Shown: positions 32,402 through 34,632 of the stretch, in pieces
Position numbering within the stretch: the first letter of the stretch is position 1
Layout of the letters: each line of letters starts with the position of its first letter
Source: Rhexocercosporidium sp. MPI-PUGE-AT-0058
Lineage: Eukaryota > Ascomycota > Leotiomycetes > Helotiales
DNA length: 64,000 bases
NCBI GenBank assembly: GCA_020746875.1
Contig: JAGTJL010000014.1
Span: forward strand, 1,612,001-1,676,000
Direction of reading: 5' to 3'
Program-made: the position numbers and the translations under genes
Notes under the pieces: model-generated
Told to the model about the DNA's origin: nothing
What the model saw: only the letters and a program-made list of their open reading frames with translations
Database searches by the model: none

Positions 32402-32955
32402 TGTTGGGCTTGGTGTTTGTATAGAAATGATTTTTGTGGGATGACGTTTAGCATTCGAGGCGGCTCAAATTCGTGTTCGGGGAAGCGAGTTCTGCAACAG
32501 ATAATTCACTTTCAAAATCAAGAGCTTGACCCATTTGAATCTCTTTGTGAAGTTAATGTCCCGGAGTTATTTAGAGACTTTGAACAGACTCAGATTCAAG
32601 GATGTAGAGAGAGCGAATGTTGGAATATTGGTCCTCGCTCGCACCGCCGAAGATGAATTTTGCCCCCATCAACCTTGACCGAGGCATCAAATCAGAGTTG
32701 CGTGATTGAAGGGTACATTTTGTATGGCAAGAGAAAAAAATACTGATCTGTAGGTAATTCATAATTGGATTCACCATTGCCATCTTAATTATCGCTCACC
32801 AGAAAGTGGTGAATACCAGACAGGCATTTCTTCTCAAGAGGGCGTCCACTCCACGTGATTGGTACGCTAATCTCACTAGCTCCGCCTTAGCGGCTGCAGC
32901 CCCCATATGTTGCTCGCCCAAAATTTTGTCCCTTTCCTTTCCTCTTCTCTTCTTC
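32402..32955. other. Intergenic region / U4 snRNA promoter side
   Basis: No protein gene is supported. The last ~27 bases (32929-32955) are a nearly pure pyrimidine tract immediately upstream of the inferred U4 5' end. A conserved upstream snRNA element could not be identified without comparison. Confidence 0.45.
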
Positions 32956-33144
32956 ATCTTAGTGCATGGGTAAGCTACCACCCCCCAATATCCCCAAGTC
33001 CCTCACGTCGCTAACTGTTCCTCGCAGGTATTACGCATCGCAGTGAGGATTCGTCCGAGCGTGTGTTTTTGCTTATTGAAAACTACAATAATATTGACGC
33101 TCTCATTTGGCTTCGGCCGGGTGAGGAATTTTTGGAACCACACA
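32956..33144 (+). ncRNA. U4 spliceosomal snRNA gene containing a spliceosomal intron
   Basis: Exon 1 is 32956-32969 (ATCTTAGTGCATGG) and exon 2 is 33028 to about 33144, giving a mature RNA of about 131 nt. Joined, the first 35 nt align without gaps to yeast U4 (both ...GGG..(U/A)UACGCAU..CAGUGAGG). The 5' stem-loop follows: stem 33033-33041 with 33059-33066, the k-turn internal loop for Snu13/15.5K, and cap GGA-UUCG-UCC at 33047-33056. GAUUCGUCCGAG is identical to yeast, while the lower stem changes AUC/GAU to CGC/GCG, a compensatory exchange. Next come UUUUUGCUUAUUGAAAAC (U4/U6 stem I region), a perfect 10-bp hairpin with a UUCG loop (33102-33125) and the Sm site AATTTTTGG (33127-33135). U4 chaperones U6 in the tri-snRNP. 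The 3' end is inferred from the distance past the Sm site in yeast. Confidence 0.93.
32970..33027 (+). other. 58-bp spliceosomal-type intron inside the U4 snRNA
   Basis: The donor is GTAAGC at 32970. The branch-site match GCTAAC lies at 33010-33015, about 14 nt before the acceptor CGCAG, which ends at 33027. Length and signals equal those of the mRNA introns in this window. Its removal restores the U4 5' domain with exactly the yeast spacing. The intron sits between mature nucleotides 14 and 15, inside the segment that forms U4/U6 stem II, so an unspliced transcript could not form that helix normally. Confidence 0.88.
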
Positions 33145-34632
33145 TTCTCGATTTGAGAGAGAGATGAACTTTTTCATTGCGATGGGCTTGTTGGAGCTGT
33201 CGTGAAGAAGAGGTTGTTGGGTGCCTTGAGGAGGTGAGTGGACGGTGTGTAGCATTGGAGAAGCTGACTCTGATTTTGGCTTAACAGATCCGTGATGCAC
33301 ATATACGCCGGCCTGACAACACCTTTGGGACTTCAACGATGCGAGTGATAACTTCTTGATATGACTATGGGGGATGCGGTGATAGAAGAGAGCTCTGGGT
33401 TGGTGGATAGGCAGCACACACAATACAATGCTGGAATGGTACGCTGGGACTTCAAGCTTGAATGGGCTTGGTAGAGGGTTTATTTTAAAGTCACAGCACT
33501 GGAGGTCTGGCACAGTGGCGAGTCATGGATTTGGAGCAGAGTTCCACACCAAGATGGATTTGATGGGGCTTGAGCTATGTGAAGCAGGGCACAGATGAAG
33601 CGACGAGACAAATCAAGAACTATAGATCCCAACAAGTAAAAATCTTGATTTGATTTCATGACACTGAATGCTAGATGAACCATTCAACCCACCAGCCTCT
33701 TCCACAGGACACTTCCAGCTGAATGATTTATTATCCTGCCTAGTACCTACGCACACTTCCGAGGACGGCTTCCAAACTAATGCACGAGAGAGATGGCAAT
33801 GCAGTAGTGCCTGCAGCCCCTTTTTACTTCTCAGCCCTTGTGATATGCAAATAGCATCATCATCGTGCTATGCTTGCTTATGTCTGTCTACCTGATTGAT
33901 GCGACTGTACGTAGAGTTTCTCTGTACAACCTAATCTGCTTGGTCCCTGCACAGGATATCACAGCCCTACCACACAGAGGAGAAGCCTCAGCTCACAAGC
34001 TGGATCGGATGTCTCCGAATGGTTCATCCTCCAAAACTCTCCGCTCCGCAGGTTCAGATGCTGGAATGGACGCCGGCCCGGGAGATCGGCCGTGCCTGGA
34101 TTTTGGTTCGACGCGCCAAGAATTGCTAGGAGGAGATTAAGATTGGGCTGAAGTGGATTTGGTGTGCATTGGATGGGATTGGATTGGACTGGATGTCGAA
34201 GAAGGTAGGTAGCAACAGCACTACCGAGTTTGATTGATCCAACTGTATCACGCGTAGGAAGGATCTCCGAAATTACAAGCAAGCAGGCAAGCAAGCAAAC
34301 TGGCTGGGCAAAGCTGTCTTCTGTTCCAGGCCAGCAAAGCAGCCAGCCCAGCCTCCCGCCTCCAGTCTCAGCCCCCAGCCCGGTCTGAACTGGAACACGA
34401 GCACGACCACGACCACGACCACGACCACCAGGTTACGTTACGAAAACCCCACAGACATCCCTCCCTCAGATCTCGGTCGCTATCCCTTTTCTTACTCCCC
34501 TTGTTTCGCTCCTCTACAACTCTAACTACAATTCCGAAACCCCTACCATGACCTTGTCCACGGCGGCACCATTGCGACAACAGGACCACAGGACAGCAGC
34601 GCTGTACTCATAACACTACACGTACATCAGCA
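33145..34632. other. Intergenic region between U4 and the RA-PH gene
   Basis: No gene is convincing. The right part holds simple repeats: a CAAG-rich tract (about 34273-34302) and a (CACGAC)n hexanucleotide run (34398-34429). The latter lies about 200 bp upstream of the RA-PH start, in its likely promoter or 5' UTR. Confidence 0.5.
34398..34429. repeat. (CACGAC)n hexanucleotide repeat
   Basis: Near-perfect tandem hexamers lie upstream of the RA-PH protein gene and are likely transcribed in its 5' leader. Confidence 0.8.

Follow-up and report, generated by a model that had tools for sequence, protein, structure and literature searches.

U6 is a Pol III RNA found in the catalytic core of the spliceosome, whereas U4 belongs to the Sm type and departs before catalysis. 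When snRNA genes contain introns, these are interpreted as traces left by reverse splicing close to the catalytic core. To our knowledge, U4 is the sole spliceosomal RNA without a reported intron, and since it leaves before catalysis, this absence suited the reverse-splicing view. In the basidiomycete Rhodotorula hasegawae, mRNA-type introns reportedly interrupt the U1, U2, U5, and U6 genes, and we know of no report that adds U4 to them. Spliceosomal introns are also said to occur in the rDNA of ascomycetes, where the host is again a non-coding RNA, but rRNA instead of U4. Small introns are likewise present in the U6 genes of S. pombe and other fungi. One paper describes their removal by the spliceosome (PMC8917221), and another presents them as thought to derive from reverse splicing (PMC10484740). 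A third reports that intron-bearing and intronless copies of the fungal U3 snoRNA gene coexist in eight of the surveyed genomes, and states that, among small structured RNAs, frequent interruption by an intron had until then been known for U3 and U6 alone (PMC5832005). The U3 introns involve no self-splicing loop because U3 acts in ribosome production.

Here we describe a split U4 snRNA gene in Rhexocercosporidium sp. MPI-PUGE-AT-0058 (Helotiales, Leotiomycetes). It lies at positions 32956-33157 on the plus strand of the window, which is the whole 64-kb stretch of DNA that was analysed. The gene resembles the fungal U6 genes in having a small intron within a spliceosomal RNA gene, and the same genome contains a U6 case as well; it differs from them in that the host RNA is of the Sm type and is gone before catalysis. 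It shares with the Rhodotorula genes an mRNA-type intron in a Pol II snRNA gene, and with the fungal U3 genes a spliceosomal intron in a small RNA gene of which mixed copies exist. A search of the open-licence literature gave no report of a U4 intron, and it is plausible that the U4 intron is new.

The covariance search proposed in the earlier note gave a cmscan match to the U4 family (RF00015) at 33018-33157, with a score of 76.4 bits against a cut-off of 46 (E 1.2e-16). A U4atac identity was considered and rejected, as U4 is the best-scoring family in the clan; one overlapping match of lower score was dropped from the output. The RF00015 model is blind to the intron, and it places its first 14 positions on the final 10 bases of the intron by means of a 4-nt deletion. 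All parts of the gene lie on the plus strand. Exon 1 (ATCTTAGTGCATGG, 32956-32969) has 14 nt and is the 5' part of the strand that pairs with U6 in stem II. It is followed by a 58-nt GT-AG intron (32970-33027) with a GTAAGC donor, a CTAAC branch motif (33011-33015), and a CAG acceptor; the branch A is at 33014, with 13 nt from there to the intron end. Exon 2 (33028-33157) is delimited by the RF00015 match, its 3' end being approximate. It contains the U4 5' stem-loop (33034-33065) with the internal element GUGAGG...CCGAG, for which the cmscan alignment marks no non-standard pairs, and the stem I segment TTTTGCT (33067-33073), which is placed by the same alignment and, on the model of known U4/U6, should pair with U6. 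The 3' stem-loop (33102-33125) has a UUCG loop and is paired in the predicted fold, and the Sm site AATTTTTGG lies at 33127-33135. Within the 5' stem-loop there is an apparent AUC/GAU to CGC/GCG change relative to yeast U4. The three intron signals, the UUCG hairpin, and the Sm site are all present, as the earlier note had observed. That note had ended the RNA at 33144; the Rfam match moves the end to near 33157, and removal of the intron in silico leaves a spliced RNA of about 144 nt. In the lowest-energy fold of this spliced RNA alone, the U4 5' stem-loop is not formed.

Rfam and a subsequent DNA search found three U4 genes in the genome. Aside from the window copy, there are L001 on contig C9, an intact intronless U4 that scores higher in Rfam (91.5 bits) than the window copy does, and L003, a copy on contig C60 that is split at the same position by an intron of 51 nt. 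The claim that splicing restores the U4 5' domain is borne out by the intronless gene: with the intron removed, the first 36 nt of the window U4 align to it without gaps, and 31 of the 36 are identical. Exon 1 is identical to that of L003 in 14/14 positions and to the intronless U4 in 12/14. We then asked how often a 14-mer this close to the 5' end of the intronless U4 and followed by GT arises by chance when the 200 nt that terminate at the acceptor are shuffled with dinucleotides preserved. This happened in 1/20,000 shuffles for the window copy and in 0/20,000 for L003; with the Rfam consensus as the reference, the counts were 14/20,000 and 5/20,000, respectively. An exact match to exon 1 plus the adjoining five bases of the donor exists in two places, the window copy and L003, and the six further matches have 3 mismatches.

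The spliced forms of the window copy and L003 are identical at 119 of 121 positions. Their intron interiors, trimmed by 6 bases at the donor end and 3 at the acceptor end, give a comparison score of -4.0, where shuffles average -3.6 (1179 of 2000 shuffles are as good), and the upstream DNA from -300 to -26 scores -12.5 against -9.9 in shuffles (200 of 300 as good). The last 25 bases upstream, excluded from this comparison, hold a pyrimidine tract that is similar in both copies. The donor GTAAGC is identical, the branch motif of L003 is CTGAC with 11 nt after its A, and the bases preceding exon 2 differ except for the final CAG. By inspection, both exon differences leave the helix of the 3' stem-loop paired. 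Directly after its Sm run, L003 has a U in place of the G of the window copy. As intron interiors and upstream DNA are at shuffle level, the exons and splice signals look selected; their preservation in saturated surroundings is the trace expected of a working spliced gene. Gene conversion could be a partial contributor to the exon identity. The next protein gene has a 47-nt intron with GTAAGT and CTAAC, signals like those of the U4 introns. Neither U4 intron markedly resembles the other or any of the four remaining small-RNA introns: their best pairing is equalled by 15/500 shuffles, with 15 pairs tried. As regards an introner-type mobile intron with near-identical copies, this comparison covered the six small-RNA introns of the genome. 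Relatives of the U4 gene were also sought in virus and in bacterial and archaeal contig collections, with 0 matches, a result that is uninformative on fungi. Chiefly because a second copy is split at the identical position by an intron that has diverged, the identification of the window gene as a U4 interrupted by a spliceosomal intron, which the earlier note had put forward, is well supported.

We regard the window gene as a genuine Pol II-type U4 gene whose precursor has a small mRNA-type intron removed by the spliceosome, and assign this reading a probability of about 0.87. What the DNA itself displays are the parts and their spacing, the conservation between two copies, the promoter motifs, the 3' element, and, as a prediction, stem II; from these we infer that the window U4 is transcribed, spliced, cleaved at its 3' end, and used in spliceosomes. 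The precursor would carry the intron inside the sequence that pairs with U6 in stem II. The spliceosome would excise the 58 nt in the normal two steps, joining nucleotide 14 to nucleotide 15. The product of ~144 nt would have the stem II strand, the 5' stem-loop, the stem I segment, the 3' stem-loop, and the Sm site at normal spacing, and would be able to pair with U6. Formation of its 3' end would probably be aided by an RNase III-type cut in a hairpin downstream of the gene. The earlier note had supposed that the spliceosome would need U4 to mature its own U4, a claim that the intact and better-scoring intronless U4 on contig C9 leaves unsupported in that form. This paralogue could supply the U4 that starts the process, and its presence renders the loop in which U4 is needed to make U4 possible, not obligatory.

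The pairing of U4 with U6 was inspected in predicted folds. Spliced window U4 and the spliced intron-bearing U6 (L005) are predicted to form stem II through U4 nucleotides 3-11 and 13-16 (9 + 4 pairs) with an energy of -22.1 kcal/mol. In this model the partner of U4 G14 is the base that opens U6 exon 2, and the partner of U4 G15 is the base that closes U6 exon 1, so that the exon junctions of the two RNAs are exactly opposite each other. For a random U4 position, the chance of such an arrangement is roughly 1 in 140, an estimate made post hoc. For exon 2 extended upstream by 10 nt, the predicted energy with U6 is -13.4 kcal/mol, and the unspliced window precursor is predicted to form nearly the same stem II at -22.3 kcal/mol. 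The precursor and the spliced RNA share their first 17 nt because the GTA of the donor repeats the GTA that opens exon 2; the precursor would thus equal the product in its pairing with U6, and the pairing would cover the donor. The joint lowest-energy fold of spliced window U4 and L005 lacks both the 5' stem-loop and stem I. Folded jointly with L004, the second U6, the window U4 does show the 5' stem-loop, as does the intronless U4 with both L005 and L004. The stem II energies with L005 and L004 are -25.3 and -24.5 kcal/mol for the intronless U4, and -22.1 and -19.3 kcal/mol for the intron-bearing U4, respectively. Two separate U4/U6 sets, with intronless U4 paired to intronless U6, were considered but are not proposed here, as these energies fail to separate them.

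Upstream of the window gene we found CACGTG at 32852-32857 (at -104, recorded without strand), TAGCTCC, a variant of TAGCGCC, at 32877-32883 on the plus strand (at -79), and a weak TATA-like CATATG at 32904-32909 on the plus strand (at -52). These motifs were selected post hoc: CACGTG was chosen after inspecting the sequences, and CATATG is a by-eye addition to the search. Of 13 sn/snoRNA genes of the genome, 7 have CACGTG in the 200 nt upstream, among them both intron-bearing U4 genes; the background, from 8 sites in the 64-kb window, is 0.025 expected per 200 nt. TAGCKCC or TAGCGC is located at -67 to -88 in 7/13 genes, namely the two intron-bearing U4, the two intron-bearing U2, two U1, and one U3. 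A TATATA, TATAAA, or ATAAAT box is located at -39 to -49 in 11 of the 12 non-window genes, the exception being U5, and the TATA-like box of the window copy is displaced and the weakest. CACGTG and TAGCKCC occur together in all of the split U4 and U2 genes (window copy, L003, L015, and L016), and neither is found in the intronless L001 (U4) or L017 (U2). It is possible, on these small numbers of genes, that regulation differs between intron-bearing and intronless U4 and U2 genes.

Downstream of the gene, a hairpin TTTCATTG...TGAAGAAG occupies 33170-33213 on the plus strand and shows covariation over 10 U1/U2/U4 genes. Common to four U1, three U2, and three U4 genes, it comprises 18 pairs with 92.8% of cells paired, and 11 pairs are changed on both sides. 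Its covariation score is 0.520 against 0.176 in shuffles and is reached by 0/500 of them, although relatedness inflates such counts. A model built from these ten genes and run over 35 sources matched both U3 genes (49.8 and 46.6 bits), which were absent from its training set, and had no match at the sole U5 gene found (L018). RNase III takes part in snRNA 3'-end formation in yeast, and by analogy the hairpin is probably a 3'-end processing element that serves as an RNase III entry site. The U5 gene, on contig C1, has neither the 3' hairpin nor either of the two promoter motifs, and no TATA-like box stands in its customary position. A further snRNA-type 3' hairpin (36 bits) was seen on contig C11 (L042:1498-1541), in a locus with no Rfam match at E 0.5.

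The intact intronless U4 raises the question of whether the two split copies have become pseudogenes or fallen silent, with the contig C9 gene making all working U4. The earlier note had named a separate intact intronless U4, together with a silent locus at 32956-33144, as grounds against its reading; such an intronless gene was found, and the conservation between the copies speaks against a silent locus. An intact intronless gene of higher score (91.5 bits) could make the intron-bearing copies dispensable, and the weak TATA-like box of the window copy and the changed Sm context in L003 are also in keeping with decay. Relics would not be expected to keep exons identical at 119 of 121 positions next to introns and -300 to -26 DNA at shuffle level, nor to preserve the 3' stem pairing at both exon differences and retain the promoter motifs and the 3' hairpin. 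We therefore consider silent copies very unlikely.

Extremely unlikely, in our judgement, is an unspliced RNA transcribed from near 33018, that is, a U4-like RNA with a different 5' end. The Rfam model does align at full length from 33018, but the bases preceding exon 2 are unlike between the two copies save the final CAG, and the U6 duplex would be poorer (-13.4 vs -22.1 kcal/mol). Such a start would also leave the identity of exon 1 unexplained, and it is the sequence just before 32956 that has a pyrimidine tract resembling the tract of the U2 genes. Compatible with our reading of a genuine spliced U4 gene is a regulatory role of the intron: pairing of pre-U4 with U6 would cover the first two intron bases and delay splicing, and the supply of U4 would answer to free U6. 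The GTA repeat at the donor and the precursor duplex of -22.3 kcal/mol point in this direction; the duplex is a prediction only and a three-base repeat may be due to chance, so we regard such regulation as unlikely.

The window U4 is not the only small RNA gene with an intron in this genome, in which the counts of sn/snoRNA genes are lower bounds. Introns were found in two of three U2 genes, one of two full-length U6 genes, and one of two U3 genes, and in none of four U1 genes or the single U5 gene found; all four U1 genes score under the Rfam cut-off (44.2 to 46.4 bits vs 69.5). The two split U2 genes, L015 and L016 on contig C34, are ~20 kb apart, and each is unsplit where the other is interrupted. 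The L015 intron has 50 nt (1557-1606) with the junction CAGTTT|AATC, and the L016 intron has 52 nt (1471-1522) with the junction GTAGT|ATCTG. The latter split (GUAGU|AUCUG in the RNA) falls within what we take to be the branch-site recognition sequence of U2. The U6 gene L005 has a 49-nt intron (1558-1606), because of which it scores 39.8 bits, below the Rfam cut-off of 44. The other full-length U6-like gene (L004:1501-1609, contig C12) is divergent and intronless, scores 66.1 bits, and has CACAAGG replacing CACUAAGG. The third U6 match is only a 3' piece: L006:1501-1560, on contig C1 and ~100 kb away from the split U6 gene, comprises the 3' half of a U6, lacks exon 1, and is possibly a truncated copy. 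Another locus on contig C1 (L026, about 1380-1541) has an Sm-like site, a segment resembling U2 stem IV (TTATTACACTGCCTC), and the snRNA 3' hairpin (33.7 bits), with no Rfam match at E 0.5; judged from these elements, it is possibly an undescribed or U2-derived snRNA.

The introns of U6 L005 and U2 L015 are identical at 38 of 50 positions and align with a score of 25. The best score among 2457 pairs of 71 candidate introns, from which rows overlapping the L005 and L015 introns were dropped, is 13. Over the whole intron the L005/L015 likeness is strong, its score being equalled by 53/20,000 shuffles of the interior with the end motifs fixed; the likeness between the donor and the branch motif alone is weak (547/20,000). 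This resemblance suggests a shared origin of the two introns and hints at intron movement between spliceosomal RNAs. A tentative scenario, which we hold to be doubtful, is that reverse splicing repeatedly inserted introns into spliceosomal RNAs. The one in U6, or an intron closely related to it, would have entered U2, a second U2 copy would have been hit within its branch-site recognition sequence, and U4 would have been hit at the very base-pair step that faces the U6 junction in the U4/U6 duplex; the intronless U2 and U4 and the divergent U6 copies would have made such insertions survivable.

A U4 intron that faces a U6 intron across stem II would mean either that reverse splicing has a wider reach or that introns were gained by another route. 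With paralogues that have and lack introns in a single fungus, both the mechanism of intron gain and the dependence of the spliceosome on itself may be testable in one organism.
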